Below are positions 22,602 through 38,911 of a stretch of DNA of 40,892 nucleotides, piece after piece. The stretch's first letter is position 1. Every line of letters starts with the position of its first letter. The stretch lies in NCBI GenBank assembly GCA_020348945.1, contig CP070759.1, positions 1,263,494-1,304,385 of the forward strand, read 5' to 3'. Origin of the DNA: Candidatus Bathyarchaeota archaeon. Lineage in GTDB: Archaea > Thermoproteota > Bathyarchaeia > Bathyarchaeales > Bathyarchaeaceae. The notes under the pieces were generated by a model that worked only from the letters and a program-made list of their open reading frames with translations, was not told the DNA's origin and ran no database searches. A program made the translations under genes and the position numbers.

Positions 22602-23984
22602 TCACTCCGTTCTATTCAAATCTAATCCTAAATCTTTTAGCTCCTTCTTAACTCCCTCGTATATATTTAAACATTTTCTTGACGGCTTCCCTGTCTTAAT
22701 GTCGCAACATTCCTGAAATTTCGAGCCTATTGGGGGGTCTACAATCTTATTAACATACTTTGAAGCTAGGTTTTTCACGATGTCGTTAGCGTCTTCTCTT
22801 TTCATCCCAGCAACCGCGTAAGCCACCTCAGCGGCGAATTTTGGTTCTACTGGCGTCAAGTAATCTTCTCGTCTGCCCTTTGCTATTCCTCCTGTTTCAA
22901 TGGAAACACCAGATGTCACGGCAGCTGTATGTTGCGCGGCTATCTCGTATAGGCACATTTCTGTGCATGGTCCTGCAGCTGTATAGTTGTAGTAAAGTGC
23001 CAACAAATGGGTGTTTCTGCTAATGGCTTGGGCGTAAACGCTAGCGACCCACAAGAGTTCTGGCATGCTGCTGGCTATGTGTTTAATGTGGATTGGAAAG
23101 GCGAGGAACCATCCTGCTTGATATACGAGGGCTCCCATCAAGTGGTAGGCAACGGTTGCGACCGCTGTACCCTCTGGTCCGCCGCAGTAGCCGCCGTATA
23201 TGGGTCCAAAGATTGCGGCTGTGGGAAGACCTAGAGATTTCAAAGCACACACTCTGTTGAGGAGGTCGAAGTTTGTTTTGAGCTCTGCAAGGGTGGCAAC
23301 CATGTATCCGTCTGTTGGTCTGAGACCGTATTCTGGGTGGAGTCCTGCGATTAACGCTATTGCTGAATCAGCGGTTGCGATGGAGTTCATAATGGGCAAG
23401 CCTGGTCTGCCCGCTCTTCTTATGGCTTCTCTTCCAAGAACTATTGTTCTTATTGATCCCAAGATCTCTAGAGGTGAATAAGGTCTTATTCTTATTCCGT
23501 TTACTCGGGTCAGAGTCGGCGTGGTTATTGCATTAGCAATGGGGATTTTCGCGTAATTTTCCACCAGCCCCATAAAAACCTCCTCACAGGATACAGCGAC
23601 TCCACCTGCTCCTAGAAAACGCCATGGCAACGTCTTGTCCTCAGGTTTTCTCGGAACCATTGTTCCAGCGTCTACTCCTTCCCCGAAAACAATTTTGGAA
23701 GGAGCATTTTTCAAGCCCTCTTTAATCTCGTTTTCATCGAATTTAATTATCCGCTCCGTGTCGTTGCAGTATGTACCTACTTCACAATAGAAATCAAAGG
23801 CTGCTTTGAAAATATCGTCGGCCAAACTGTTATCAGAGGAGACAAGGTTTTCTGGGTCGAATTTAATATCGTATTCCTTTACTACTTCCCTCAGTTTAGT
23901 GGAAAATATTTTCAGGTCGTAATCTCGCTCAGAACAAGGCTTCCCAGTTAGAGCCTTTTCAATGGCATCCAGGAAGACAACCAT
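22602..23984 (-). CDS. MtmB-family methyltransferase without pyrrolysine (copy 1)
   Basis: This 460-residue protein is clearly homologous to monomethylamine methyltransferase MtmB: the N-terminal GKPCSERDYDL matches GEKCTQDDWDL, IFGPIYGGYCGG matches the MPIFGGYAGG region, AGPCTEMCLYEIAAQ is nearly identical, and the tail FQECCDIKTGKPS...LGL matches. Methanogen MtmB has pyrrolysine 202 in GRPGMGV-O-GPETS; here the site reads GRPGLPI-M-NSIAT, with Met199, and no amber codon occurs. Substrate and catalysis must therefore differ from MtmB or dispense with the pyrrolysine imine. The start is one base from the preceding corrinoid gene stop, so the two are coupled. A close paralogue lies at 37535-38911. 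Confidence 0.93.
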   Translation of the reverse strand: MVVFLDAIEKALTGKPCSERDYDLKIFSTKLREVVKEYDIKFDPENLVSSDNSLADDIFKAAFDFYCEVGTYCNDTERIIKFDENEIKEGLKNAPSKIVFGEGVDAGTMVPRKPEDKTLPWRFLGAGGVAVSCEEVFMGLVENYAKIPIANAITTPTLTRVNGIRIRPYSPLEILGSIRTIVLGREAIRRAGRPGLPIMNSIATADSAIALIAGLHPEYGLRPTDGYMVATLAELKTNFDLLNRVCALKSLGLPTAAIFGPIYGGYCGGPEGTAVATVAYHLMGALVYQAGWFLAFPIHIKHIASSMPELLWVASVYAQAISRNTHLLALYYNYTAAGPCTEMCLYEIAAQHTAAVTSGVSIETGGIAKGRREDYLTPVEPKFAAEVAYAVAGMKREDANDIVKNLASKYVNKIVDPPIGSKFQECCDIKTGKPSRKCLNIYEGVKKELKDLGLDLNRTE

Positions 23985-24727: not shown

Positions 24728-25945
24728 CTAAGACAATGTCCTCTTCATCTTCTCGTATACTGGCATTTTCATTTCCGTCAGCTTGGACAAAATTACATTC
24801 CTAACTTCCAAGTCTAAGCATTCTGGAGCGATGACACCAGTGGTTTTTATATCTCCTCTTCCAAGCATCCAAGCAAAAATTGCAGCTGGAACACCAGTGC
24901 AATATGACTCTTGAGTTACGCCTGGCATTATCTTGTTGGCTTCACGGATATTCAATGTGGGCCACTCATAGGTGTAGCGTATCGTTTCATCTGCTTTTTC
25001 ACCGGCAACTTCTACTATTGCAAATTCACTGGCGTCAACCAGTATTCCTTCTTTGATTTTTTGCTGTACTTCCTCCATGGCAAGAGGAGGCGGAATCGCA
25101 GAAACGAAAACCTCTCTTGGAACCACCTTTGTCCCTCTGACATCGACAGGCTTTTTACTTAAGAGGCCGATTTGCCAGATTGCCTTTGCAATGTATATGT
25201 CTGGGTCACCCATCTTAAAGTCAGCGTATTTTAATCCTTTTCCTATGAACCTAGATAACGTTACTACTTCTTCGTGATGATGATGAACGAGTTTTTGAGA
25301 GCCGAACGGTTCAGGAAACGGATATACTTCTTCGCCACTGAACGGAGGGACTCTTTTCAACTTTCCGTTCTCGTAAAGAAATGGTTCTTCCGCCATATCA
25401 GCCCACATGGTCTCCGGCGACCAGATTGAGATGAACTCTTTGGTTTCCATGAGACCCGTGTATCTTATCTTTATTTCATCCACTTTGTCAAGTTTATCGG
25501 CGGCGTGTCTCGCAAGTATGTTAGTAACTCCGGGCGACGATCCTGTGTTTATCAAAGCGGTTAATCCTGCGTCTTCGTATTTTGAGCTCCGTTCTATCTG
25601 TTGTGAAATGAATTCATCCATCGGCGTGTCAGTTGGGCCAGACGCAAGGTCTTGATAGTGGGCTCCACCCTTCAAAACCGCATCCATCAATATCAAATTG
25701 TATTTAGGTACAGTTGCGTTTACAACTAAGTCCATTCCCTTCGCGGCACTCGTCAACTCGTCTTGTTTCGTTGCATCAAGTTTCTTAGGTGACACCTTGT
25801 CGCTCTTAAGTCTCTCAACAAGTCGCTTCGCCTTCGCCAAGTTCCTTCCAGCACAAACAACCTCGGAAACCTCAGGTCTTCTTGCCAAATAAGTGCATAT
25901 TACAGAGCCTTGAGCACCGTATCCTCCTACAACCAGTACTTTCAT
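24728..25945 (-). CDS. Saccharopine dehydrogenase-like NAD(P) oxidoreductase
   Basis: This 405-residue protein opens with a Rossmann fold (VVGGYGAQGSVICTYLARR) and has the two-domain layout of the saccharopine/carboxynorspermidine dehydrogenase family, including the SSPGVTN turn after the first domain. These enzymes reduce or oxidise imines of amino compounds with NAD(P). The substrate cannot be assigned. It is first of four minus-strand genes leading to the corrinoid protein, MtmB-like and MtrH-like genes, with a gap of about 90 bases before the next, so it may process the amine substrate or the demethylated product. An alternative role in lysine or polyamine metabolism is possible. Confidence 0.75.
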   Translation of the reverse strand: MKVLVVGGYGAQGSVICTYLARRPEVSEVVCAGRNLAKAKRLVERLKSDKVSPKKLDATKQDELTSAAKGMDLVVNATVPKYNLILMDAVLKGGAHYQDLASGPTDTPMDEFISQQIERSSKYEDAGLTALINTGSSPGVTNILARHAADKLDKVDEIKIRYTGLMETKEFISIWSPETMWADMAEEPFLYENGKLKRVPPFSGEEVYPFPEPFGSQKLVHHHHEEVVTLSRFIGKGLKYADFKMGDPDIYIAKAIWQIGLLSKKPVDVRGTKVVPREVFVSAIPPPLAMEEVQQKIKEGILVDASEFAIVEVAGEKADETIRYTYEWPTLNIREANKIMPGVTQESYCTGVPAAIFAWMLGRGDIKTTGVIAPECLDLEVRNVILSKLTEMKMPVYEKMKRTLS

Positions 25946-26020
25946 GTTTAATCCCGTAGCTAATACTTGTCTAATGGCTTTTAAACTTTAATGATACATA
26001 AATATTTGTTGTTCGAAATT

Positions 26021-26056
26021 CTTTTATGTAAGAAAGTTAATTGTTTAAAGATGAGG
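26021..26056 (+). promoter_or_regulatory. Probable promoter and ribosome binding site of the aromatic operon leader
   Basis: A/T-rich CTTTTATGTAAG (26021-26032) is a plausible TATA box, with AATTGTTTAAAG (26039-26050) as an alternative. GATGAGG (26050-26056) could be the ribosome binding site for the short ORF at 26068. All are called from composition and spacing. Confidence 0.35.
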
Positions 26057-26067
26057 CTCTGGGACCC

Positions 26068-26148
26068 ATGAGAAAGAAAACGGTGATTCAAACGATCAAC
26101 TGTTCAACGGCTTTCTACGCCTACAGCTATAGCTTCCGCTATTTTTGA
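26068..26148 (+). CDS. Tyr/Phe-rich leader peptide of the aromatic operon
   Basis: A 26-codon ORF (ATG 26068, TGA 26146-26148) ends in FYAYSYSFRYF: four Tyr and three Phe in the last 11 residues. It stands 64 bases before the first gene of the aspartate semialdehyde/chorismate/tyrosine operon. Its stop codon abuts a stem-loop (26150-26191) that is followed by TTTT and the aspartokinase ribosome binding site. This is the arrangement of bacterial ribosome-mediated attenuation leaders such as pheL, in which scarcity of the end-product amino acid stalls the ribosome and changes the downstream fold. Nothing shows directly that it is translated; composition and location are the evidence. Confidence 0.55.
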   Translation: MRKKTVIQTINCSTAFYAYSYSFRYF

Positions 26149-26149
26149 G

Positions 26150-26191
26150 GCCCAGTAGCTAGATTTTTGCGTCAATTTTAGCTTCGTGGGC
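26150..26191 (+). promoter_or_regulatory. Stem-loop between leader peptide and aspartokinase (attenuator-like)
   Basis: GCCCA (26150-26154) pairs with TGGGC (26187-26191), and inside it AGCTA (26157-26161) pairs with TAGCT (26179-26183), with a 17-base loop. TTTT (26192-26195) and the GGAGG ribosome binding site (26196-26200) follow directly. Competing pairings exist upstream: CTGGG (26059-26063) with CCCAG (26151-26155), and TAGCT (26130-26134) inside the Tyr/Phe codons with AGCTA (26157-26161). It could control termination or access to the ribosome binding site. Confidence 0.45.
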
Positions 26192-26212
26192 TTTTGGAGG
26201 TTTGATTGGTTT

Positions 26213-27469
26213 ATGAAACCATCTAATGTAAAAAACTGCAAACGAATCGTGGTAAAATATGGAGGAGCTAGCTTAGCTGATCATGAACGAATGTTAAGAG
26301 CTGTTTCGGCTGTTGCTAAAGAAGTAGCAAAAGGCACGCAGATCGCTGTGGTTGTTTCAGCCATGGGAAAAACAACTGATTTGCTTCTTAACGCAGCCAA
26401 GAACGCTTCTAGCGGAAAAGTTGAAAAAGGAGAGTTAGACGACATTCTAGCAATGGGAGAGAGAACCAGCATCAGAATTGTCACCGCAGCTTTAAAAGCA
26501 AAAGGCGTAGAATCCCGTTACTTTGACCCATTAGACCCAGACTGGCCCATCGTAACGGATGGTAACTTCTCTAACGCAAACCCAATTGAGAAACAATGCA
26601 GAAAAAGGATTCAGCAATACGTACTTCCCCTTGTTGAAAAAGGCGTTACACCGGTCATTGCAGGTTTTGTGGGCAGGACACCTGATGGAAAAATAACTAC
26701 GATTGGACGGGGCGGAAGCGATGCAACAGCGTTCATTCTAGCGAAAGCATTAGGAGCCGATGAGATTGTTTTGGTTACTGACGCTCAGGGAATCATGTCT
26801 GCTGACCCAAAGGTTATTCAAAACCCTGAAACAGTTCGAGAGATTGATGTGAACACGCTGGTGGGACTCGCTGATTCAGACACGAAGTTCATTCATAGAA
26901 AGGCCCTAAGATACAAAGACTCGTCAGTCAATGCAAGGGTGATCAGCCATGTTCATGGCGATTTGAATGCAGATGGCACATTAATCACTGGAGGTTCATC
27001 ATCTGAATTAGATGTGGTCGTGGTGAGTCAATCTCCTGCAGTCTCGATAACCGTGGTTGGTCGTGGAGTTTCTGAAAAACCTAAGGTCATCCAAGAGCTA
27101 ACCGAGGTCATTAAAGCTCACGCGTCGTTGTTAGGTTTGTCTGTTGATTCCAATTCTATGATTTTGTACGTGGCAGGAGGGGGAGATTTAAATGCTCTCT
27201 TGGAGAAAGTTCATGAAACAATGCTGAAACACACGGAAACCATCGCAATGTCTGTCAAGGAGCAGTTAGCCTTTCTCAGAGTCAGCGGTGTGGGCCTAGA
27301 GGAAACCCCCGGCATCATAGGAAAAATATCAGAGACTCTGCGGCTAAATGAAATAAACATCTTCGGCATCTTAACAATCACGTCTAGTATCCTTATTTTT
27401 GTGGATTGGAACGAGAGGGAAAAAGCTCTAAAGCTGATTAAAGGCTCATTACGAGGTGATAAAAGATGA
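26213..27469 (+). CDS. lysC: Aspartate kinase
   Basis: This roughly 418-residue enzyme makes aspartyl phosphate from aspartate and ATP. The amino acid kinase domain shows VVKYGGASLA, VVVSAMGKTTD, IGRGGSDATAFILAKALGADEIVLVTDAQGI and a C-terminal regulatory part with ACT-type repeats (VSITVVGRGVSEKP; GVGLEETPGIIGKI). ATG 26213 is chosen, with GGAGG at 26196-26200 (12-base spacing, slightly long). A GTG at 26186 would add nine residues, oddly rich in Phe and Trp, and lies inside the leader stem-loop. It overlaps the next gene by four bases. Here it probably feeds aspartate semialdehyde to aromatic synthesis as well as to the usual Thr/Met/Lys pathways. Confidence 0.93.
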   Translation: MKPSNVKNCKRIVVKYGGASLADHERMLRAVSAVAKEVAKGTQIAVVVSAMGKTTDLLLNAAKNASSGKVEKGELDDILAMGERTSIRIVTAALKAKGVESRYFDPLDPDWPIVTDGNFSNANPIEKQCRKRIQQYVLPLVEKGVTPVIAGFVGRTPDGKITTIGRGGSDATAFILAKALGADEIVLVTDAQGIMSADPKVIQNPETVREIDVNTLVGLADSDTKFIHRKALRYKDSSVNARVISHVHGDLNADGTLITGGSSSELDVVVVSQSPAVSITVVGRGVSEKPKVIQELTEVIKAHASLLGLSVDSNSMILYVAGGGDLNALLEKVHETMLKHTETIAMSVKEQLAFLRVSGVGLEETPGIIGKISETLRLNEINIFGILTITSSILIFVDWNEREKALKLIKGSLRGDKR

Positions 27470-28512
27470 TGAAAGCTGCAGTCTTGGGTGCAACAGGTTC
27501 AGTTGGTCAAATTTTCGTCCATTTGTTGAGTGGGCACCCATGGTTCGAGGTTTCAGTTGTAGCAGCTTCTGAGAGAAGCGCTGGACTGAAATATTCAGAG
27601 GCAGCGAAATGGAGACTTCCAACTCCGATTCCCGAGAACGTTTCCGACCTCGATGTAGTTGACATAGAGCCTAAGGCCGTTAGAAACATTGAAGATGTCG
27701 ACGTGGTTTTCTCCGCGGTGCCCGCTGAGGCGGCTGGCAAGACAGAGGAAAGCTTTGCTGAGGCCGGATACGTCGTGGTGAGCAACGCTTCTTCCCACAG
27801 AATGGACCTAGACGTGCCTCTGGTGAACCCGGAAGTCAACTGTGATCACGTCTGCCTCATCGACGAGCAACGCAGGAGAAGAAAATGGAGCGGGGCAATC
27901 GTTACAAACCCAAACTGCACCACCACAGTTTTGACCCTTTCCCTAAAACCGATATACGATGAATTTGGAGTTGAAAGAATGATAGTTTCCACGATGCAGG
28001 CCATCTCTGGTGCAGGATACCCAGGCGTCGCCTCCCTCGACATCGTAGACAACATTATTCCCTTCATCAGGGAAGAGGAGGAAAAAACGCAAACCGAAAC
28101 TCTAAAGATATTTGGTTCTCCTTCAAAGCCAGCTGACTTCAAGATTTCAGCTAGCTGCCACCGGATTCCAACGTTGGACGGGCATATGATGGCGGTTTTC
28201 GTCGAGCCAAAACGCGAAGCAGACCCTGAATCAGTTATGGCTGCGATGGAAAGGTTTGTTGGGGAACCTCAGAAGCTTGGGCTTCCAACCGCGCCAGCGA
28301 AACCCGTCGTCGTTAAGCATAATGAATATAGACCGCAAACGAGACTGGACAGAATGGAAGGCGGCGGCATGAGCGTTGTGGTTGGCAGAGTTAGAGAAGA
28401 TCCAGCCCTTGGAGGAGTTAAATATGTCGTTCTAGGCCACAACACCATAAGAGGGGCTGCTGGTTGCGGCGTTCTAAACGCCGAATACTTGAAAGCAAAA
28501 AAATACCTTTAG
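27466..28512 (+). CDS. asd: Aspartate-semialdehyde dehydrogenase
   Basis: This 348-residue enzyme reduces aspartyl phosphate to aspartate semialdehyde with NADPH. It shows the N-terminal Rossmann motif GATGSVGQIFVHLL, the catalytic Cys in TNPNCTTT, and downstream SGAGYPG and the conserved His in SASCHRIPTLDGH. It belongs to the archaeal/fungal type by length and the NPNCTTTVL pattern. The ATG overlaps the aspartokinase stop (ATGA). Its product is a substrate of ADH synthase, encoded by the next gene. Confidence 0.95.
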   Translation: MMKAAVLGATGSVGQIFVHLLSGHPWFEVSVVAASERSAGLKYSEAAKWRLPTPIPENVSDLDVVDIEPKAVRNIEDVDVVFSAVPAEAAGKTEESFAEAGYVVVSNASSHRMDLDVPLVNPEVNCDHVCLIDEQRRRRKWSGAIVTNPNCTTTVLTLSLKPIYDEFGVERMIVSTMQAISGAGYPGVASLDIVDNIIPFIREEEEKTQTETLKIFGSPSKPADFKISASCHRIPTLDGHMMAVFVEPKREADPESVMAAMERFVGEPQKLGLPTAPAKPVVVKHNEYRPQTRLDRMEGGGMSVVVGRVREDPALGGVKYVVLGHNTIRGAAGCGVLNAEYLKAKKYL

Positions 28513-28525
28513 GAGATGAACAAGT

Positions 28526-29317
28526 TTGGAACCTGGTAAAAAGAAAAGGTTAAAACGAATCTTCCGTGACGACCAACGAACTGTTATAGTGCCAATGGAC
28601 CACGGCGTAACCGTGGGCCCAATTAAGGGGCTTGTGAATATGCAAACGATCATTGACAAGCTTCTGGAGGGTGAAGCGGACGCGGTTGTAGTGCACAGGG
28701 GAGTGGCGAAACACGTTGACACTGGACAAGCCGGCTTGATAGTACACTTGTCCGCTAGCACAAAGCTTGGCCTTGATCCAAACTACAAGGTTCAAGTGTG
28801 TTCCGTAGACGAAGCCGTAAGAATCGGTGCAGACGCTGTTTCCGTCCACATCAATGTTGGCGCCGAACAGGAAGACAAGATGCTCATGAAACTAGGCAAG
28901 GTTGCGGATGACTGCGACCGATACGGCATGCCCTTGCTAGCCATGATGTACCCAAGAGGTCCGAAGATTAAGAATCAACACGCTGTGGATGTGGTTGCGC
29001 ACGCCGCTCGGTTAGGTGCTGAGCTAGGCGCTGACATTATCAAGACCAACTACACGGGCAGTATTGAATCCTTCAGAGAAGTGGTTCGCGGTTGCCACGT
29101 TCCAGTCATAATCGCTGGCGGTCCTAAGGTGGAAACTGTTCGAGAGATTTTACAGATGGTGCAAGACTCGGTGAAAGCTGGCGGCGCAGGACTCTCCATT
29201 GGTAGAAACGTGTTTCAACACGAAAACCCAACCCTGATAGTTAAGGCGCTCTCAGCAATCGTGCATACTAACGCTTCAGTCGATGAATCCTTAAAAATTA
29301 TTGGTGGGGCTAAGTGA
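28526..29317 (+). CDS. aroA': ADH synthase (2-amino-3,7-dideoxy-D-threo-hept-6-ulosonate synthase)
   Basis: This 263-residue class I aldolase-fold enzyme condenses aspartate semialdehyde with a deoxyketohexose phosphate to give ADH, the archaeal alternative to DAHP (MJ0400 family). It shows VPMDHGVTVGPIKGL at the N-terminus, the TIM-barrel segments MMYPRGPKI and IIKTNYTGS with the Schiff-base Lys, and a terminal IAGGPK and LSIGRNVFQ phosphate-binding region. It starts with TTG 28526 after AGGAGATG (28511-28518). Placement next to asd and dehydroquinate synthase II supports this over fructose-bisphosphate aldolase. Confidence 0.93.
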   Translation: MEPGKKKRLKRIFRDDQRTVIVPMDHGVTVGPIKGLVNMQTIIDKLLEGEADAVVVHRGVAKHVDTGQAGLIVHLSASTKLGLDPNYKVQVCSVDEAVRIGADAVSVHINVGAEQEDKMLMKLGKVADDCDRYGMPLLAMMYPRGPKIKNQHAVDVVAHAARLGAELGADIIKTNYTGSIESFREVVRGCHVPVIIAGGPKVETVREILQMVQDSVKAGGAGLSIGRNVFQHENPTLIVKALSAIVHTNASVDESLKIIGGAK

Positions 29318-30387
29318 AAGAACTCTGGATTGAAATAGACGAGTCATTTCCCGTTAAAGTAAAAAACAGCCTAATGAAATCAGCCCCTAAGTTCTGCGAT
29401 GTCCTTTTAGTTGACTCACGGGATGTAGAAAAAGCTAGAAAGTCTGGAGTCAAAACAGCGGCCAGCTCAGGCGACAGCGACATCAATGTGCTAGAAGTCT
29501 TTGATGAAGGCAAAGCTAAAAAGTTGAAAGAAACGGGGAAAACTGTTGCAGTGAAAGTAAGTATACATGGAAGAGAAGATGAGAAGACTATTGCCCGTGC
29601 CGTGGAATTATCCTACGATTATATAATCCTCGACTGTCCCGACTGGAAAATCATCCCCTTAGAGAACGTAATCGCGATGACGCGTGGGAAAACTAAACTG
29701 CTCGCCGAAGTTCCAAGCGCAAAAGACGCTAAGGTTGCCTTAGAGACTCTAGAGCTGGGGGCTGACGGAGTTGTCCTGAAAACTTATAGCCTTGAAGAAC
29801 TTGCAAAGACAGCAGCTATCACGAACAAGAAAACCTTAAAGATTGAGTTGATGTCCGCCAAAGTCGTGGAGCTGAAACAGATTGGAATGGGAGCCAGAGT
29901 CTGCGTTGACACGTGCGACCTTATGAAGTTGGGGGAAGGAATCCTCGCAGGATGCCAGTCCTCCGGTTTGTTCCTCGTTCAAGCAGAGGTTCATAAAAGT
30001 CCCTACGTGGAAACACGTCCGTTCAGGGTTAACGTGGGACCAGTATCTCTATACGCTCTTTCCTCACTCAGCAAAACTAGATATCTCTCAGAGCTGAAGG
30101 CGGGCGATGAGGTCCTCGTAGTTGATAGGAAAGGAAAGACTAGGTCAACGCATGTAGGGAGGGTAAAGATAGAGTGGAGACCTATGTTGCTTATTGAAGC
30201 TGAATGCAAAGGGAGGAGAATAAAAACAATAGTTCAAAACGCCGAAACTATCAGACTTGTAACCAGAGATGGTTCCAAATCGGTTACTGGTTTAAAAACT
30301 GGCGACGAGGTTCTGGTGTATATAACAAAGGAAGGCGGCAGGCATTTCGGAACCTTGGTGAAAGAGGAGATGGTAATAGAGCGTTGA
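29314..30387 (+). CDS. aroB': 3-Dehydroquinate synthase II
   Basis: This 357-residue enzyme belongs to the MJ1249 family, which oxidatively deaminates and cyclises ADH to 3-dehydroquinate with NAD; it is unrelated to bacterial AroB. Typical features are the start KELWIEI, the middle TRGKTKLLAEV and GADGVVLKT, GMGARVCVDTCDLM, and the C-terminal ETRPFRVNVGPVSLYAL segment. The GTG start overlaps the preceding stop (GTGA), and its own stop overlaps the aroD TTG start, so it is translationally coupled at both ends. Confidence 0.94.
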   Translation: MKELWIEIDESFPVKVKNSLMKSAPKFCDVLLVDSRDVEKARKSGVKTAASSGDSDINVLEVFDEGKAKKLKETGKTVAVKVSIHGREDEKTIARAVELSYDYIILDCPDWKIIPLENVIAMTRGKTKLLAEVPSAKDAKVALETLELGADGVVLKTYSLEELAKTAAITNKKTLKIELMSAKVVELKQIGMGARVCVDTCDLMKLGEGILAGCQSSGLFLVQAEVHKSPYVETRPFRVNVGPVSLYALSSLSKTRYLSELKAGDEVLVVDRKGKTRSTHVGRVKIEWRPMLLIEAECKGRRIKTIVQNAETIRLVTRDGSKSVTGLKTGDEVLVYITKEGGRHFGTLVKEEMVIER

Positions 30388-31067
30388 CCATCAGGATCTG
30401 CGTCTCGGTCCTTCCTGAAACTCTCGCTGAGGCTTTAAAGCTTGTTGAGAAGGCTGAAAACCACAGAGCAGACCTTATTGAAGTCAGATTAGACAACTTT
30501 AGAGAACACGATGAATTATCTGACATCGCAAGTTGTAGTAAGATGCCTCTGATAGCAACGAGCCATTCAATTAAATGTCACGGCAAATTTCGGGGAAGCG
30601 AAACCGAGCGCAAACAAATACTACTGAAGGCCGCTGGAAACGGGTTTGAATACGTCGACATAGAGCTATCCGCATCTGAACTGGAAAATATCGTTAACGA
30701 CGCACATGAAATGGGTGTAAAGTGCATAGTGTCCTTCCACGACTTTAACCAAACTCCAAGTTTGCCGCAGATGAAGGAGGTTCTCCGGAAGGAAATTGCG
30801 AGTGGAGCCGACGTGTGCAAAATTGTAACCACGGCCAAGTCGGTTGAGGACAATTTAACCGTTTTAAACTTCGTGTCCGAAGCCTGCAAAAATGCTAAGA
30901 CTGTTTGTTTTTCCATGGGAGAACTGGGCAAGATTTCTAGGCTTCTGTCGCCATTCTTCGGTGGCTTTTTCACGTTTGCGTCTCTTGAGAAAGGGGGAGA
31001 AACAGCGTCGGGACAGCTGACTATTCAAGAAATGAGGGTCGCGTACGAGGCTTTGGGGCTAGTGTGA
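30384..31067 (+). CDS. aroD: 3-Dehydroquinate dehydratase, type I
   Basis: This 227-residue enzyme dehydrates 3-dehydroquinate to 3-dehydroshikimate through a Schiff base. Family residues are EVRLDNF, the catalytic His in VSFHDFNQTP, and the Schiff-base Lys in VCKIVTTAK; SGQLTI lies near the C-terminus. The open frame extends upstream inside aroB', but the TTG at 30384 overlaps the aroB' stop by four bases, like the neighbouring junctions, and gives the conserved start TIRICVSV. The upstream extension looks non-coding. Confidence 0.94.
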   Translation: MTIRICVSVLPETLAEALKLVEKAENHRADLIEVRLDNFREHDELSDIASCSKMPLIATSHSIKCHGKFRGSETERKQILLKAAGNGFEYVDIELSASELENIVNDAHEMGVKCIVSFHDFNQTPSLPQMKEVLRKEIASGADVCKIVTTAKSVEDNLTVLNFVSEACKNAKTVCFSMGELGKISRLLSPFFGGFFTFASLEKGGETASGQLTIQEMRVAYEALGLV

Positions 31068-31068
31068 A

Positions 31069-31938
31069 ATGGAAATTTCTGGAAGAACAAAGCTTTGCTG
31101 CGTCATTGGAGATCCTGTAGAACACACGTTGAGTCCTGTGATGCACAACGTTGCTTTTGAAGAGTTGAACCTCAATTTTGTTTACCTAGCCTTTAGAGTC
31201 AAAAAAGAAGAATTAAGAGACGCAATACTTGGCGCAAGAAGTTTAAACATTCACGGGTTAAACGTGACTATGCCTCACAAAACAGCCGTCATGGAACACC
31301 TAGACGAAATAGACTCGATGGCAAAGTCTATTGGTGCAGTCAACACTATCCTCAACGCCGGAGGGAAACTTGTAGGCTACGTCACCGACGGTGTTGGTGC
31401 AGTAAGAGCGCTGAAGGAAAACGGTGTAAATCTGGAGGGAAAGAAGGTGCTTCTGCTTGGAGCTGGTGGTGCCGCAAAAGCAATAGCGTTTCATGTAGCA
31501 CAGGAAGTGGAGGAGCTTAAGATTCTCAACAGAACCACTTGGAAAGCTAAGGAGCTGGCAGAAGTTTTAGGTAAAAAATTTAACAAGAAGGTAAGTGGAA
31601 ACTTATGTTCATCTGAATTAGTGAAAAAGGAGTTGGAGGAAGCGGATATACTGATTAACGCAACCTCTGTCGGCATGCACCCAGACGTTAACCGAAGCCT
31701 AGTGGACCCGAACTGGCTGAGACCTGACTTATGCGTTATGGACATAATCTACAACCCACTAGAAACCAAGCTTGCAAAGAACGCGAAGTCCGTGGGAGCT
31801 AAAGTGGTCAGCGGCATTGAAATGCTTGTCCATCAGGGCGCCGCCTCCTTCGGAATATGGACTAACCAACCGGCTCCAGTCAAGGCAATGCGAAAGGCTG
31901 TTTCAAATAAACTTTCAACGCTGGGTGCTCTCAGTTGA
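31069..31938 (+). CDS. aroE: Shikimate dehydrogenase
   Basis: This 289-residue enzyme reduces 3-dehydroshikimate to shikimate with NADPH. It shows the substrate-binding GDPVEHTLSPVMHN and NVTMPHKTAV with the catalytic Lys, GAVNTI, the nucleotide-binding GAGGAAKAIAF and NRTTWKAKEL, and the terminal GIEMLVHQGAASFGIW. The ATG is one base after the aroD stop, and its stop overlaps the next TTG start. Confidence 0.95.
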   Translation: MEISGRTKLCCVIGDPVEHTLSPVMHNVAFEELNLNFVYLAFRVKKEELRDAILGARSLNIHGLNVTMPHKTAVMEHLDEIDSMAKSIGAVNTILNAGGKLVGYVTDGVGAVRALKENGVNLEGKKVLLLGAGGAAKAIAFHVAQEVEELKILNRTTWKAKELAEVLGKKFNKKVSGNLCSSELVKKELEEADILINATSVGMHPDVNRSLVDPNWLRPDLCVMDIIYNPLETKLAKNAKSVGAKVVSGIEMLVHQGAASFGIWTNQPAPVKAMRKAVSNKLSTLGALS

Positions 31939-32807
31939 CGGGAAAAGCTGAAGCTGTGTCCCACGGAGCCGCTACCATCGTTAACGCCATCGCTACTGGT
32001 AAGGGAGCAGCTGTCGGAGTGGATTTGTGGACAAGGGCAAGAGTCCAGTTGACAGACAAACCGAGAGTTATTGAGAGCAATATTATGTCAGATCCCACCG
32101 AAGACACGGTTTTGATTGAAAAAACGGTGGGCAAGGTTCTTGAATATTTTAGTCTTGAGGGAAAGTTCGGTGCGAAGGTTGAAACATGGTCGAACATCCC
32201 TATCGCTAGGGGCTTAAAGAGTAGTAGTGTGGCGGGGAATGCTATAGCCTTGGCAACTGTATCTGCTTTAAACAAAAGTTTAGATGACCTGACGATTTTA
32301 AACCTAGGTGTGGACGGGGCGGTAGAGGCAAAGGTTACGATAACGGGTGCCTTTGACGACGCTTGTGCCTCCTACTTTGGAGGAGTCGTGGTTACTGACA
32401 ACATGAAAAGGAGAATCGTTGAGCGTTTTGAAATAGCTGAGGAACTAGCCGTTTTATTTTATGTTCCAGCAAAAAAAGTGTACACAAGTGGTTCTAACGT
32501 GCAACGAATGAAAGGGGTAGCATCTCTCGTTAAGATAGCCCATGAAGAAGCAGTGAAAGGAAATTTCTGGTCAGCTCTGACCCTCAACGGTTTGATATAC
32601 TCATCGGCGTTAGGATACACCCCCTCCATAGCCGTGGACGCCTTAATGGCTGGAGCGTTAGCCGCAGGGCTGTCTGGCACTGGTCCCGCAGTCACCGCCA
32701 TCGTTCCTGAGGAGAAAATCGATAGTGTCAAAGACGCGTGGCAGACGTACGAGGGTGACATCCTGCAGACTCGCGTAAACCACGAAAAAGCCAAGGTGGT
32801 AGGTTGA
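31935..32807 (+). CDS. aroK: Shikimate kinase, archaeal GHMP type
   Basis: This 290-residue kinase of the GHMP superfamily phosphorylates shikimate and is unrelated to bacterial P-loop AroK. The ATP loop is PIARGLKSSSVAGNAIALA, with the C-terminal GLSGTGPAVTAIVP motif typical of the group. It starts with TTG 31935, overlapping the aroE stop by four bases. Position between aroE and aroA confirms the assignment over homoserine kinase. Confidence 0.95.
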   Translation: MTGKAEAVSHGAATIVNAIATGKGAAVGVDLWTRARVQLTDKPRVIESNIMSDPTEDTVLIEKTVGKVLEYFSLEGKFGAKVETWSNIPIARGLKSSSVAGNAIALATVSALNKSLDDLTILNLGVDGAVEAKVTITGAFDDACASYFGGVVVTDNMKRRIVERFEIAEELAVLFYVPAKKVYTSGSNVQRMKGVASLVKIAHEEAVKGNFWSALTLNGLIYSSALGYTPSIAVDALMAGALAAGLSGTGPAVTAIVPEEKIDSVKDAWQTYEGDILQTRVNHEKAKVVG

Positions 32808-32813
32808 TCAAAG

Positions 32814-34100
32814 TTGACAGATGTCCTGATCAAGAAAAGCGAGAGATTTGGCGGCGAAATCCGCGCTCCTCCGTCCAAAGCTTACACGCACAGGATGATG
32901 ATTGCCGCGTCACTGTCAAGAGGAAGTTCAAAAATACTGAATCCTCTCTCCTCTAACGACACTCAAGCAACGCTGGAGACCATAGAAGCCTTCGGAGCAA
33001 AAGTAGAACTAAAAGAAACCTGTTGGACGATTAAAGGAGCATCCCCCCTTGAAACCCCTAAAAAAACCATAGACTGTGGAGAGTCCGGGTCTACCCTCCG
33101 TTTTATGATACCTGTAGCGGCTCTAGCACCCGGTTCCTCCACTTTCACTCTCGGATTGTCCCTTAGCAGGAGGCCTCTGGAGCCCCTTCTTCAAAGTCTT
33201 AAACAGCTGGGGACAGAATCCAGTCTTCAACGAGGTGAACAAGGTCTGACAATCAGAGTTCATGGCGGAGGGATAAGCGGGGGAAAAACGTCAATAAGGG
33301 GAGATGTAAGCTCCCAGTTCATTTCAGGATTACTGTTTGCGTGTCCAAGGGCGGAGGAAAACACTGAGATTGCAGTCACTACGCCTCTGGAATCCAGAAG
33401 CTATGTTCAAATGACCCTTGAGGTCCTTGAAAAACACGGCATCAAAATATCAGCATCAGATGATCTAAGTCGACTGAAAGTTCCTTCCAACCAGAACTAT
33501 AGCTCGTGTGATCATAAGGTTTCAGGAGACTTCTCGTCTGCATCCTTCCTTCTAGCCGCTGCAGCAATAACATGCTCGAAAATGAGAGTGAAACATCTTG
33601 ATTATCATACGAAGCAGGGAGACAAAGCAATACTGGATATATTGGAGGAAATGGGCTCAAAAGTGAGCGTTGGATATGAATACGTTGAGATTGAAGGAAA
33701 ACAACTCAACGCCGTAGATGTGGATGCAAAAAACATACCCGATCTAGTTCCAGTCTGCGCTACCCTCGCATGTTATTCAAAAGGAACATCCAAATTGTAC
33801 AACGCTAAGAGGCTCAGATACAAAGAGTCTGACAGGCTGTCTTCCCTGCACGCTGAGTTAAAGAAAATGGGCGCCGACATCAACATGAATGAAGACGGTC
33901 TAATCATAAGAGGACCCTGCCAATTGCATGGAGCAACAATCGATCCTCATAACGACCATCGAATTGCCATGGCTTGTGCTGTTGCGGCTCTAGGGGCGAG
34001 TGGCGAGACGAAGATTCAAAACTCTGAGTGTGTTAGAAAATCTTATCCGCACTTCTTTGATGATTTACGTTTGTTAGGAGCGGATGTTGTTGGCGGGTGA
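32814..34100 (+). CDS. aroA: EPSP synthase (3-phosphoshikimate 1-carboxyvinyltransferase)
   Basis: This 428-residue enzyme adds enolpyruvate to shikimate 3-phosphate. It has the two-domain inside-out barrel signatures: KAYTHRMMIAASL, GESGSTLRFMIPVAAL, GDVSSQFISGLLFA, RYKESDRLSSL and NDHRIAMACAVAALG. It starts with TTG 32814 six bases after the shikimate kinase stop. Its 3' end overlaps aroC by 17 bases. Confidence 0.96.
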   Translation: MTDVLIKKSERFGGEIRAPPSKAYTHRMMIAASLSRGSSKILNPLSSNDTQATLETIEAFGAKVELKETCWTIKGASPLETPKKTIDCGESGSTLRFMIPVAALAPGSSTFTLGLSLSRRPLEPLLQSLKQLGTESSLQRGEQGLTIRVHGGGISGGKTSIRGDVSSQFISGLLFACPRAEENTEIAVTTPLESRSYVQMTLEVLEKHGIKISASDDLSRLKVPSNQNYSSCDHKVSGDFSSASFLLAAAAITCSKMRVKHLDYHTKQGDKAILDILEEMGSKVSVGYEYVEIEGKQLNAVDVDAKNIPDLVPVCATLACYSKGTSKLYNAKRLRYKESDRLSSLHAELKKMGADINMNEDGLIIRGPCQLHGATIDPHNDHRIAMACAVAALGASGETKIQNSECVRKSYPHFFDDLRLLGADVVGG

Positions 34101-35196
34101 TGCTATAGGTAAAGAGTTTGTTGTAACCTGTTTCGGTGAAAGTCACGGCAGATGTGTAGGAGTTGTTGTGGACGGTTGCCCAGCTGGTCTCCCACTTTCT
34201 GAACGAGACATTCAAGAAGAAGTGGACAAGAGGATTCCTCTCAAACCCGAGATTGTATCTGCGAGAAGAGAAAAAGATATCGTTGAAGTTCTCTCCGGAA
34301 TCTTCAATGGCTTCACAACCAGCGCCCCCATCTGCACCCTAGTTTGGAACAAAGAAGCGGCTCCTGGAGAATATGATCAAGTTAAGGATACGCCTAGACC
34401 GGGACACGCAGATTACCCTGCTCGAATTAAATACGGAGGCTTTACCGATTATCGTGGAGGAGGAAGGTTTTCGGGCAGAATGACGGTGGCTTTTGTGATG
34501 GCTGGGGCCATAGCTAAGAAGTTGCTAGGTCTTTTCGGTGTCGAAGTTTTGGCTTACGCGATTGAGATAGGTAAAGTTAAAGTTGAGAAGAAACTCAAGC
34601 TTGAGGAGATTCGCAGCAACACGTATAAATGTGCAGTTAGGTGCCCTGACTTGGAACGTGCAAAAGCTATGGAAGAGAGTATCTTGAAGGCTAAAAGTGA
34701 AGGCGACAGCGTGGGCGGTGTCGTTGAGTGTGTTGCTCTGAAGGTTCCGGTGGGAGTCGGCGAACCAATATTTGATTCTCTGGACGCTGACATAGCTAAG
34801 ATGTTGTTTGCTGTTCCAGCAGTCAAGGAAGTTGAATTCGGCGCCGGATTCAAGGCTGCTCAACTGAGAGGATCAGAGAACAATGATGCGTATGCTATAC
34901 GCGGCGGAAAAACTGTGACGTTAACAAACAATGCAGGTGGCGTTTTGGGCGGGATATCCTCTGGGATGCCTATTGTGGTTAGAGCTGCCATAAAACCTAC
35001 TCCTTCCATATCGAAAGAACAGAGGAGCGTTGACCTATCAAGGATGGAGGAAACACTGATTCGAGTTAGGGGCAGACATGACCCGTGCATCGTGCCGAAA
35101 GCGGTTCCTGTTATCGAGTCTGTGGTTGCCATGGTTTTGGCTGATCATATGCTTCGAGCAGGAGTTATACCCAAAGTTTTGCGGGAGGAGAAATAG
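34084..35196 (+). CDS. aroC: Chorismate synthase
   Basis: This 370-residue FMN-dependent enzyme converts EPSP to chorismate. Signatures are FGESHGRCVGVVVDGCPAGLPL at the N-terminus, GGRFSGRMTVAFVMAGAIAK, GGISSGMPIVVRAAIKPTPSI and RGRHDPCIVPKAVPVIESVV at the C-terminus. ATG 34084 lies three bases after GGAG; TTG codons at 34087 and 34090 have better spacing and are possible starts. Confidence 0.96.
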   Translation: MLLAGDAIGKEFVVTCFGESHGRCVGVVVDGCPAGLPLSERDIQEEVDKRIPLKPEIVSARREKDIVEVLSGIFNGFTTSAPICTLVWNKEAAPGEYDQVKDTPRPGHADYPARIKYGGFTDYRGGGRFSGRMTVAFVMAGAIAKKLLGLFGVEVLAYAIEIGKVKVEKKLKLEEIRSNTYKCAVRCPDLERAKAMEESILKAKSEGDSVGGVVECVALKVPVGVGEPIFDSLDADIAKMLFAVPAVKEVEFGAGFKAAQLRGSENNDAYAIRGGKTVTLTNNAGGVLGGISSGMPIVVRAAIKPTPSISKEQRSVDLSRMEETLIRVRGRHDPCIVPKAVPVIESVVAMVLADHMLRAGVIPKVLREEK

Positions 35197-35197
35197 A

Positions 35198-35476
35198 ATG
35201 GAGAAGATTTCATCACTAAGAAAGAAAATTGACGAAATTGATGACCAAATTCTGCGTTTTTTAAAGGAGCGAGTGGATGTCTGTGAAAACATTGGGCTGA
35301 TCAAGCAAGAGCAAGGGATTCCCGTGAAGGACAGTCAAAGAGAAAGCGAGCAGTACACGCGAATCGCAAGAATAGCGTCGAAACTGGGACTTAACCCACA
35401 AGAAGTTAGAGCTGTGTATCAAGAAATAATTGCCATGAGCATACGTGCTCAGGAACGTGAAAGTTACAGAACCTAA
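35198..35476 (+). CDS. aroQ: Chorismate mutase, AroQ class
   Basis: This 92-residue all-helical protein rearranges chorismate to prephenate. The helix-1 pattern KISSLRKKIDEIDDQILRFLKERVDVCENI, the KQEQGIPVKDSQRE turn and the C-terminal YQEIIAMSIRAQE helix are typical AroQ. ATG 35198 follows GGGAGGAG at 35183-35190, one base after the aroC stop. The open frame continues upstream inside aroC, but that extension is an artefact of overlapping frames. It is a stand-alone mutase, not fused to prephenate dehydratase or dehydrogenase. Confidence 0.93.
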   Translation: MEKISSLRKKIDEIDDQILRFLKERVDVCENIGLIKQEQGIPVKDSQRESEQYTRIARIASKLGLNPQEVRAVYQEIIAMSIRAQERESYRT

Positions 35477-35494
35477 AGTAAGTAGTGAAGAAAA

Positions 35495-36568
35495 ATGTTG
35501 TATGAAATAAGTCAAAGAACAATGGAACTTGAAAGTGAAGGAAAGAAAATTATAAAGTTAAATATTGGAGACCCTGACCAACCAACTCCAAAGGAGATAA
35601 TTGAAGCGGCCTTTGAAGCCATGAAACATGGAAAGACAAAATACTCCTTTTATGCTGGTGAGAAGACGCTTAGAACAAAGTTGGCAAGCATCCACAATGT
35701 TTCCGCAGAAAACGTGATAATTATCCCAGGTTCAAAGTGGGCTTTTTTCTCCATAATGTACCTACTGCTGAAAAATGGAGGAAACGCTGTAATTCTAACT
35801 CCATACTGGACCGCTTATGAAATGGCCGCCAAAATTCTTGGAGTGGAAATAAGATTTTTGAAGGCAGAATTTGATTCTAACTGGAAAATTGACATTGAAA
35901 AGTTGAGAAATCTGATTGACCAAAAGACGCGGCTGCTAATACTGAACAATCCTAACAACCCCACCAGCAAAGTCCTAGAGAATAGTTTACTTGAAGAAAT
36001 CGTTGAGGTTGCAAACGATAAGAAAGTCACAATTATGTCTGACGAAGTCTACCGTGATTTAAGCTTCGTTAAGACAAAGAGCACTTTAGACTTCGGTGGC
36101 AGCCAAATACTTGTCAACAGTTTTTCCAAAACATTTGCAATGACGGGATGGCGGATCGGCTACGTTGTCGTGGACAAGGAGCTGGCTGGAAAAATGATGA
36201 AACTGAACCAGATGACCTTCACAAACGTTCCCGTTTTCGTTCAAGAAGCCGCTTTAAAGGCTTTGGAACTGAAAGAGAAAATCGCCGGGGAGATGAAGGC
36301 GATATACCGACGAAGAGCAGATTTGGCCTGCAAGATTCTTTCGGAAACAGAATTAAAATTCACTAAACCCGATGCTCCCTTCTATATCTTTCCAAAGTAC
36401 GCCAATCTAGATTCTGAGAAGTTTGCGTTTGATTTGCTGGACAAGAGAGTCGCCATAACTCCCGGCACCTCTTTTGGAGACTATCGAGAACACTTCAGAA
36501 TAGCGTTAACCATGCCAGAAGAAGAAATCAAGCTGGGATTAGAAAAAATTTGCGAGGCGCTAGAATGA
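35495..36568 (+). CDS. Class I/II aminotransferase (probable aromatic/aspartate type)
   Basis: This 357-residue PLP enzyme is of fold type I. It has KLNIGDPD near the start, the NNPNNPTSK motif, DEVYRDL, and the PLP-lysine in SFSKTFAMTGWRIGY, with the substrate-carboxylate Arg near FRIALTMP at the end. The N-terminus is about 25-30 residues shorter than usual; a stop codon in frame upstream excludes a longer start. Between chorismate mutase and tyrA it most likely transaminates prephenate or 4-hydroxyphenylpyruvate/phenylpyruvate. An aspartate aminotransferase role supplying the operon's aspartate is also possible. Confidence 0.88.
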   Translation: MLYEISQRTMELESEGKKIIKLNIGDPDQPTPKEIIEAAFEAMKHGKTKYSFYAGEKTLRTKLASIHNVSAENVIIIPGSKWAFFSIMYLLLKNGGNAVILTPYWTAYEMAAKILGVEIRFLKAEFDSNWKIDIEKLRNLIDQKTRLLILNNPNNPTSKVLENSLLEEIVEVANDKKVTIMSDEVYRDLSFVKTKSTLDFGGSQILVNSFSKTFAMTGWRIGYVVVDKELAGKMMKLNQMTFTNVPVFVQEAALKALELKEKIAGEMKAIYRRRADLACKILSETELKFTKPDAPFYIFPKYANLDSEKFAFDLLDKRVAITPGTSFGDYREHFRIALTMPEEEIKLGLEKICEALE

Positions 36569-37386
36569 AAGTAGCTATAATTGGCGGCACGGGAAAAATG
36601 GGTCGATGGTTCACAAAGTTTTTCTTGGATGAAGGCATGCAGGTGATAGTTTCGGGTAGAAATAAGGAAAAGTTGTTGAAAATAAAAGATGAGCTTGGAG
36701 TTGAAATCGCTGACAACGTAAATGCAGTCAAAAGTGCTGACAGAATTTTCATATCCGTGCCCATGGAGAACTTCAAAGAAGTCGTAAGGGAGATACGTTC
36801 ACACATACGTCCAGACCAGGTGGTTATGGACATCTGTTCAGTTAAGGAGTTTCCCGTCAAAGTAATGCACGAACACATAGAGACTGGGATAACATTGGGA
36901 ACCCATCCCATGTTTGGTCCTCGCGCAGAGAACATTCAAAACCAAAATTTCATCCTCACCCCAACCAACAACAAAGAAAGAAAATTTGCAGACGATTTTA
37001 AAAGTTGGTTGGAGGAGAGAAAGGTAAATGTGTCCATAATGTCTCCAAGAAAGCATGATGAGCTAATGTCTGCGGTTTTAGGGCTTCCCCACTTTATTGG
37101 TATAGCCATTTGTGACACCTTACTAAATTGTGTTGACCTTGTTGAAACAAGAAAGGCTGCTGGAACCAGCTTCAAGCTGTTGTTGACGCTAGCTGAAACA
37201 GTTGCTTCTCAAGACCCGGAATTTTGCGCAAGCCTTCAAATGAATTTACCCAACGTAGAGAGCGTTGAAAGCTTTTTCTGTGAGAAATCGATAGAATGGC
37301 TGAACACGATCAAACGAAAAGATAAATCAGCATTCGCTGACAAGATGAGAGTTGTTAAAGCGAAATTGGAGAAGATAAGTGTGTGA
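36565..37386 (+). CDS. tyrA: Prephenate dehydrogenase
   Basis: This 273-residue enzyme oxidatively decarboxylates prephenate to 4-hydroxyphenylpyruvate (or arogenate to tyrosine). It shows the N-terminal Rossmann GGTGKMGRWFTKFF, DICSVKEFP, and the conserved THPMFGPRAE with the catalytic His. The ATG overlaps the aminotransferase stop (ATGA); a TTG at 36550 would lie inside the aminotransferase. It is the last gene of the operon. A gene for prephenate dehydratase (the Phe branch) is not in the window. Confidence 0.92.
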   Translation: MKVAIIGGTGKMGRWFTKFFLDEGMQVIVSGRNKEKLLKIKDELGVEIADNVNAVKSADRIFISVPMENFKEVVREIRSHIRPDQVVMDICSVKEFPVKVMHEHIETGITLGTHPMFGPRAENIQNQNFILTPTNNKERKFADDFKSWLEERKVNVSIMSPRKHDELMSAVLGLPHFIGIAICDTLLNCVDLVETRKAAGTSFKLLLTLAETVASQDPEFCASLQMNLPNVESVESFFCEKSIEWLNTIKRKDKSAFADKMRVVKAKLEKISV

Positions 37387-37487: not shown

Positions 37488-37534
37488 GTGTCTAATACAA
37501 AATCCATCAACAAAAATTGAAGGGTGAAATTAAA

Positions 37535-38911
37535 TTGCCTACTCTTTTAGACGCCGTAAACAGAGCCTTAACGGGGAAACCCTGTTCAGAAAGAGACTAT
37601 GACCTAAAAATATTTGCGACTAAACTAAGGGAGCTTGTAAAAGATTATGAAATCAAGTATGACCCAGACGTCTCTGTCTCATCAGACGACAGTTTAGCTG
37701 ACGATGTTTTCAAAGCTGCCCTCGACCTCTACCGCGAGGTCGGCACATACTGCAAAGACACAGAGCGGATAATTAAATTCGATGAAAACGAGATTAAAGA
37801 GGGCCTGAAAAACGCTCCTTCCAAAGCCAGCTTCGGAGAAGGGAAGGATGCCAAGATCATGGTTCCGAGAAAACCTGAGGACAAGACGCCGCCATGGTGT
37901 TTCATCGGGGCAGGAGGCGCACCCGTGTCCTCTGAGGAAGTTCTTGCAAGTTTAGTGCAAGGTTATGGATCGATACCTATTGCCGATTCTATAACTACGC
38001 CAGCTCTAACTTCAGTGGATGGAATGAGAATACGATCTAACTCGCCTTTAGAAATCTATGGATCAATAAGAAATGCAATTTTAGCAAGAGCAGCTTTGAG
38101 AAAAGCAGGAAGACCCGGCTTGCCAATCATGAACGCACTCGCAACCGCAGAGTCCGCTCCATCATTGATTGCAGCACTTCATCCGCAATATGGGCTTAGA
38201 CCTTCAGATGGATACCTGATGGCCGCACTAGCAGAGTTGAAAGTAGATTTTGATCGCCTCAACAAAGCCTGCGCTCTGTCAAACCTCGGCGCTCGTATTG
38301 TCGGGGAATCAGGTCCCGTATTCGGTGGCTACTGCGGCGGACCAGAGGGCACAGCCATAACTGCTGCTGCCTATCATATTCTAGGAGTTCTTGTATATCA
38401 AGCAACATGTCACCTAGTTTTTCCAGTTCACATTAATTATAGGTGTAGTACAGCACCGGAACTGTCTTGGGTGATAAGCACTTACGGCCAAGCAATCAGC
38501 CGGAACACCCATTTGTTGTCAATGAACCTAACTTATACCGCAGCTGGACCCTGTACGGAAATGTGCTTGCACGAAATCGCAGCACGCGTTATAACAGCTG
38601 TTGTCTCTGGTCTCTCAATAGAATCTGTGGGAATTGGAAAGGCAATTCACGAGGATTATATGACACCTATAGAACCTCGGTTTGCTGCCGAGGTTGCCCA
38701 TGCAACTGCTGCAGCTGGATTTAAAAGAGAAGACGCTAACGACATCGTGAAACACCTTGAGTCGTTGTACAAGGATAAGCTCGCGAATCCTCCATTAGGT
38801 GTGAAATATCAGGAATGCTTTGACGTAAAGACAGGAAAGCCATCTCGCAAATGTTTGGAGATTTATAACAAGGTTAAAAAAGAACTGGAAGAGCTAGGCC
38901 TAGAGTTTTGA
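37535..38911 (+). CDS. MtmB-family methyltransferase without pyrrolysine (copy 2)
   Basis: This roughly 458-residue paralogue of the protein at 22602-23984 has the same landmarks: ALTGKPCSERDYDLKIF, VFGGYCGGPEGTA, TAAGPCTEMCLHEIAA and YQECFDVKTGKPSRKCL. The pyrrolysine position again reads GRPGLPI-M-NALAT, with no amber codon. TTG 37535 is chosen because it aligns with the start of copy 1 and follows GGGTGA (37522-37527) by seven bases; TTG 37517 would be upstream of that site. It has its own promoter and no corrinoid gene beside it, so it presumably shares the corrinoid proteins encoded 13-20 kb away. Confidence 0.92.
   Translation: MPTLLDAVNRALTGKPCSERDYDLKIFATKLRELVKDYEIKYDPDVSVSSDDSLADDVFKAALDLYREVGTYCKDTERIIKFDENEIKEGLKNAPSKASFGEGKDAKIMVPRKPEDKTPPWCFIGAGGAPVSSEEVLASLVQGYGSIPIADSITTPALTSVDGMRIRSNSPLEIYGSIRNAILARAALRKAGRPGLPIMNALATAESAPSLIAALHPQYGLRPSDGYLMAALAELKVDFDRLNKACALSNLGARIVGESGPVFGGYCGGPEGTAITAAAYHILGVLVYQATCHLVFPVHINYRCSTAPELSWVISTYGQAISRNTHLLSMNLTYTAAGPCTEMCLHEIAARVITAVVSGLSIESVGIGKAIHEDYMTPIEPRFAAEVAHATAAAGFKREDANDIVKHLESLYKDKLANPPLGVKYQECFDVKTGKPSRKCLEIYNKVKKELEELGLEF

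Follow-up and report, generated by a model that had tools for sequence, protein, structure and literature searches.

The stretch of DNA analysed here (the window, 40,892 nucleotides) comes from an archaeal genome of 1.72 Mb in a single contig. Its forward strand carries a 12-gene operon (26213–37386) from aspartokinase to prephenate dehydrogenase. According to Pfam, the first six genes encode aspartokinase (26213–27469, start codon ATG at 26213), Asd, a DeoC-type aldolase, DHQ synthase II, AroD and AroE, and the other six a GHMP (shikimate) kinase, EPSP synthase, chorismate synthase, chorismate mutase, an aminotransferase and prephenate dehydrogenase. The route leads from aspartate semialdehyde to chorismate and then through chorismate mutase, aminotransferase and prephenate dehydrogenase. 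All named relatives of the aspartokinase belong to Candidatus Bathyarchaeota, including the MAG BA2. The upstream neighbour (24728–25945, reverse strand) is divergent. Genes of the MtmB methylamine methyltransferase type lie on both sides of the aromatic region, at 37517–38911 on the forward strand and 22602–23984 on the reverse strand; the former, checked by Pfam, is open over its full length without an amber (pyrrolysine) codon.

Between the divergent gene and aspartokinase lies a 26-codon ORF on the forward strand (26068–26148), MRKKTVIQTINCSTAFYAYSYSFRYF, which begins with ATG at 26068, has the C-terminus FYAYSYSFRYF and stops with TGA at 26146–26148. Seven of its last 11 codons (26113–26145), the putative regulatory codons, specify Tyr or Phe. 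Immediately after the stop codon the RNA is predicted to fold into a hairpin (26147–26194, minimum free energy −18.4 kcal/mol), with an outer stem of GCCCA (26150–26154) and TGGGC (26187–26191) and an inner stem of AGCTA (26157–26161) and TAGCT (26179–26183). A single base (26149) separates the TGA from the stem, whose end is 21 nt before the aspartokinase ATG. A short U-run, TTTT (26192–26195), follows, and then the Shine-Dalgarno-like GGAGG of aspartokinase (26196–26200). An earlier note on this DNA had pointed to an operon of 12 genes for chorismate and the tyrosine precursor, to a 26-codon Tyr/Phe-rich frame in front of it, and to a stem-loop one base past the stop of that frame with TTTT and GGAGG behind it; the operon is borne out for all 12 genes by Pfam, and the frame and the coordinates of the stem-loop were confirmed from the sequence. 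Such a frame is rare by chance. On its two strands the window has 1959 stop-terminated frames with 11 or more codons, and the leader alone has at least seven Tyr or Phe in its last 11 residues. When the gap was shuffled 5000 times with dinucleotides preserved, a frame of this kind arose 6 times. A second start codon upstream opens a mini-frame, MRLWDP (26051–26071), which ends in a stop overlapping the ATG of the leader (ATGA); the start of this mini-frame, ATGAGGCTCTGGG, is shared with the two closest relatives only.

A promoter-like box lies ahead of the leader on the forward strand (26014–26028) and combines a BRE-like CGAAA with a TATA-like TTTTATG at 26022–26028. From the position of the latter, the transcript would begin near 26048–26054, just ahead of the leader. 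Of the 79 relatives, 72 have a TATA-like box ahead of the leader, and in 66 it is placed 110–129 nt before the leader stop. The candidate leader thus sits between a putative promoter and the biosynthetic operon whose products its codons specify, as is expected of an attenuator.

Orthologs of the aspartokinase were gathered in the order and the class, and their upstream regions were compared. The 79 regions consist of 70 orthologs of the order, a further three from its family f9 and six from families outside it, and represent about 28 genera and 9 families of Bathyarchaeia, or 42 clusters at 80% identity. A Tyr/Phe-rich leader ORF was identified in all 79, with its stop 24–74 nt before aspartokinase, the leader of each region being taken as the frame with the most Tyr and Phe near the gene, a choice that favours high counts. 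The same procedure applied to 20 paralogous, lysine-type aspartokinase genes gave 0–3 Tyr or Phe, no leader and no hairpin. The C-termini differ by family: the FYSFSYFFYN type is found in f1, the family of the window, the SFDYYFYYYF type in f7, the largest family sampled, NPYYYYYYYCFF in f12 and YPYFYFFYCYYFFEG in f13. The alignment of relatives that the earlier note had proposed as a check therefore came out in its favour, as the ORF, its aromatic codons and the stem are kept across the class with pair-preserving changes. Families f10, f15, f18 and f21 have no Tyr/Phe leader at aspartokinase and carry another element there instead, which is described below. Inspection by eye showed no Phe-rich leader in front of prephenate dehydratase. 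Within f1, a threshold of E ≤ 1e-40 left genera g4 and g7–g11 without any match to this aspartokinase, although some of these genomes are 96–99% complete; such genera have apparently lost the aromatic operon or use another route.

Conservation of a U-rich stretch does not by itself require that it be read as codons. About half of the leader region is U, and the Tyr/Phe stretch could be a protein-binding or termination tract that is in frame by accident. The codons argue strongly otherwise. The last 11 codons of all leaders contain 148 TTT, 94 TTC, 217 TAT and 80 TAC, and neither TTA nor TTG. Of the TTN codons, TTA and TTG thus account for 0 of 242 in the leader frame; the shares are 54 of 152 for frame +1 and 230 of 314 for frame +2. 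The average over the 70 orthologs is 6.9 Tyr or Phe per 11 codons in the leader frame and 1.3 out of frame. Single positions switch between Tyr and Phe, about 93% Tyr or Phe being retained; in f7, most of positions −2 to −8 show this exchange with a sum near 90%. The distance of the start codon is consistent, and the reading frame ends immediately in a stop codon next to the hairpin. Judged from these patterns, the Tyr/Phe bias is a codon-level, coding signal; across the 79 leaders there is codon-level selection for a run of pathway-product codons in an ORF that is presumably translated, and we regard an untranslated tract as exceedingly improbable.

Alternatively, a translated small ORF with hydrophobic residues may encode a functional peptide, for instance in the membrane, unconnected with attenuation. 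What is conserved, however, is only the content of Tyr and Phe near the stop and no particular sequence, and the N-terminal half of the leader drifts. In the upstream regions inspected, the leader was found only before the aromatic operon, and the Tyr codon it uses is the minor one of the gene body, TAT making up 72% of Tyr codons in leaders against 32% in aspartokinase genes. A functional peptide is accordingly a very improbable explanation. Phe is similarly shifted to TTT (55% against 41%), and Trp codons are not enriched in the leaders. The preference for TAT and TTT would be expected if slow codons ending in U are favoured, or if U-richness itself is selected.

The hairpin of the window is by itself only mildly unusual (z −1.6, dinucleotide shuffles), so the case for it rests on the relatives. 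With mononucleotide shuffles, the mean z of the post-stop fold is −3.5 over the 79 regions, 0.0 for the 20 paralog controls and −0.2 for the ORF body. A hairpin occurs at the same place in nearly all 79 regions though its sequence varies by family; the arms are GCCCAGAAC and GUUCUGGGC in most f7 members and quite different in f5, f9, f12, f13, f14, f23 and genus g43. It starts 2–4 nt past the first base of the stop codon in 54 of 58 f1 and f7 sequences, and in most of them its end lies 18–24 nt before the aspartokinase AUG. In f7 the hairpin and a second helix have jointly 98.3% of their cells paired, compared with 23–46% in slid versions; none of 500 shuffles was as high, a figure that overstates independence, since the arms were excised by hand into a gapless alignment that includes close relatives. 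The hairpin is weak or cut off in L036, L041, L052 and L074. The structure 3′ of the leader ORF is thus conserved as a structure, with pair-preserving variation.

The second helix involves RNA in front of the leader. The window has an arm CTGGG upstream of the leader ATG (26059–26063, forward strand), predicted to pair with the post-stop CCCAG; it is kept, or differs by one change, in nearly all f1 relatives, where it is the best upstream partner of the post-stop arm and its position is consistent. In f7, GGUUCGAAGC before the leader ATG pairs instead with AGCUUCGA inside the ORF, with 99% of cells paired. The first arm therefore has the post-stop arm as its partner in f1 and the arm within the ORF in f7, and no switch is common to both. 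The earlier note had proposed alternative pairings upstream, one of them inside the Tyr codons. The sites are consistent within families, and a pairing with Tyr/Phe codons exists in f7; the pairings differ between f1 and f7. We infer that upstream pairing may limit repeated translation of the leader. Three further folds were considered and discarded. A classical antiterminator or antisequestor formed by the 3′ arm of the hairpin and downstream RNA has no conserved partner (z +0.7). A universal upstream competitor of the hairpin reached a mean z of just −0.5 over all families, the site being consistent within families. Folding of the window RNA alone at successive ribosome positions gave a sequence-specific long-range fold and not a pattern seen elsewhere.

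Strong comparative evidence supports a promoter-like box, a translated Tyr/Phe leader and a hairpin fixed in place, and the element is very probably a cis-acting, ribosome-mediated attenuator for Tyr and Phe in an archaeon. That Tyr and Phe are sensed, which way the response goes and which step is the output are what we infer from this arrangement. A short leader transcript would begin just ahead of the mini-ORF, which a ribosome would translate. A shortage of charged Tyr-tRNA or Phe-tRNA would make the ribosome dwell in the Tyr/Phe run; with a plentiful supply, it would reach the stop codon and leave. The position of the ribosome would determine what happens to the RNA that links the leader stop to the aspartokinase start. 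Through this it would set how strongly the chorismate-to-prephenate operon as a whole is expressed, and starvation would most likely raise expression. A ribosome halted early in the run would leave the hairpin uncovered, so it is not obvious which way the effect would go.

The output may lie in transcription. The hairpin, where a U-run follows it, or the U-rich codons and loop could serve as a premature terminator, intrinsic or dependent on FttA (aCPSF1), and a ribosome held on hungry codons would shield the RNA. Archaeal termination depends on U-tracts (U4), together with aCPSF1/FttA (PMC8716108); FttA binds U-rich RNA 30–36 nt behind the 3′ end (PMC11616081), and it has been proposed that coupled ribosomes keep aCPSF1 out (PMC8116511). 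A U4 tract occurs within the Tyr/Phe run in 86% of leaders and between the stop and aspartokinase in 78%. A terminator-like hairpin with T4–T5 is present in the window, in half of f1 (7 of 14 relatives), in f12 and in f9, and the sign would be correct, starvation turning the operon on. Nevertheless, U-richness is an automatic result of Tyr and Phe codons, the positions of the U-tracts are not conserved among relatives, and f7 has at most T2 after the hairpin though the hairpin is its most conserved part. We place termination a shade below an even chance. The same observations bear on the claim of a textbook attenuation layout, of which the leader, its codons and the hairpin hold up; the TTTT after the stem is not a conserved part of it, and the hairpin abuts the stop.

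Alternatively, initiation at aspartokinase may be governed by the hairpin, which lies between the stop of the leader and the Shine-Dalgarno sequence. Slow ribosomes near the leader's end would keep it open; otherwise it would close and limit the translation of aspartokinase. Unlike the U-runs, the hairpin is fixed at both ends, 0–1 nt past the stop and 18–24 nt before the AUG. The Tyr/Phe codons extend to codon −2 or −1, and a ribosome there would overlap the 5′ arm. Sequestration of the Shine-Dalgarno sequence by the hairpin is not predicted, however: the fold leaves that sequence free, and masking of the arm by a ribosome leaves its predicted access unchanged. Control of aspartokinase alone would reach 12 genes only via coupling. 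Control of initiation is a serious possibility, on which our judgement falls more to the side of doubt.

A second leader-like element was found in Bathyarchaeia. The upstream regions of trpE and hisG in relatives have no runs of Trp or His codons; instead they carry a motif of approximately GG-N-GAY-N3-NTT followed by a pathway codon, usually just after a start codon. The codon is TGG before trpE (L152–L179) and CAY before hisG (L190–L206), where two tandem copies 19 nt apart in different frames are often present. Before aspartokinase (L092–L120, L130–L131) it is TTC with TAY in f15, f18 and f21 and TAC in f10, the families without the Tyr/Phe leader. The genome of the window has the motif before trpE (L160) as ATGAGGAATCGCGTTTGG and over the presumed hisZ start as AGGAATGGTGTTCAT. 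On the reverse strand of L219 (G000:C1:964500-979500), the sequence ATGACAAGTCGGAGGAATGGTGTTCAT (M T S R R N G V H) runs in a different frame across the presumed start of hisZ, ATGGTGTTCATAAG, in the same way as the trp leader overlaps the trpE start. The GGNGAY part is similar to a Shine-Dalgarno sequence, and the element has no match in Rfam. The element may act as a leader in which a single test codon pauses the ribosome, or as an RNA presenting a codon. A near-identical frame, MGGHLYWHKPAPETLIQV, which contains Tyr-Trp-His, lies 55 nt before the aligned aspartokinase start in f10 (L100–L106, L109, L130, L131).

A broader proposal, offered tentatively and at somewhat less than even confidence, is that leader-peptide regulation is a general device of amino-acid operons in Bathyarchaeia, comprising two unrelated types with an archaeal output (shielding from FttA, or a switch of stop codon, hairpin and Shine-Dalgarno sequence) in place of the terminator used in bacteria, and that it would be the first attenuation system in archaea and of independent origin. 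If so, the first type would be the Tyr/Phe run and the second the cognate codon after GGNGAY-N3-NUU before trp, his and some aro operons. Should the attenuator be real, archaeal coupling of transcription and translation would serve regulation, a defined cis-element would be available for studying archaeal termination or translation control, and the archaeal aspartokinase route to chorismate would have a feedback-regulated entry point. Since this conserved leader has dozens of natural variants, the question can be tested straight away. No Rfam family matched the leader region at threshold. The literature agrees with the earlier statement that no Tyr/Phe leader peptide is established in archaea: no case of archaeal leader-peptide attenuation was found in the open-licence literature, and according to a paper of 2021, archaea are not known to use transcription attenuation (PMC8448881).

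The element resembles T-box riboswitches in that amino-acid supply would control a biosynthetic operon through leader RNA, but it was rejected as one, having no match to the T-box covariance model; a T-box uses one specifier codon, whereas here a run of codons is presumably translated. Closer likenesses are with bacterial leader peptides. At tnaC a stalled ribosome keeps Rho off the RNA, and the present element would be similar if a ribosome shields U-rich RNA from FttA. However, tnaC answers an excess of Trp through its nascent peptide; here many hungry codons would be involved, with FttA proposed in place of Rho. The trpL leader RNA inhibits itself by pairing back on the ribosome-binding site of the leader, and the predicted pairing of pre-ATG RNA with the ORF in f7 or with the post-stop arm in f1 is comparable. 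In pheL, trpL and hisL of E. coli, a run of pathway-product codons ends one to two codons before the stop and a hairpin lies downstream; the short leader ORF, the downstream hairpin and the place at the head of a biosynthetic operon are alike. The differences are that the gene is archaeal, the hairpin abuts the stop codon, the U-run is not conserved and no conserved 2:3 antiterminator was found, and that Tyr and Phe would be sensed together before a chorismate operon that begins with aspartokinase. Leader-peptide attenuation is known in bacteria; as far as we have found, its occurrence in an archaeon and the placement of the hairpin would be new.
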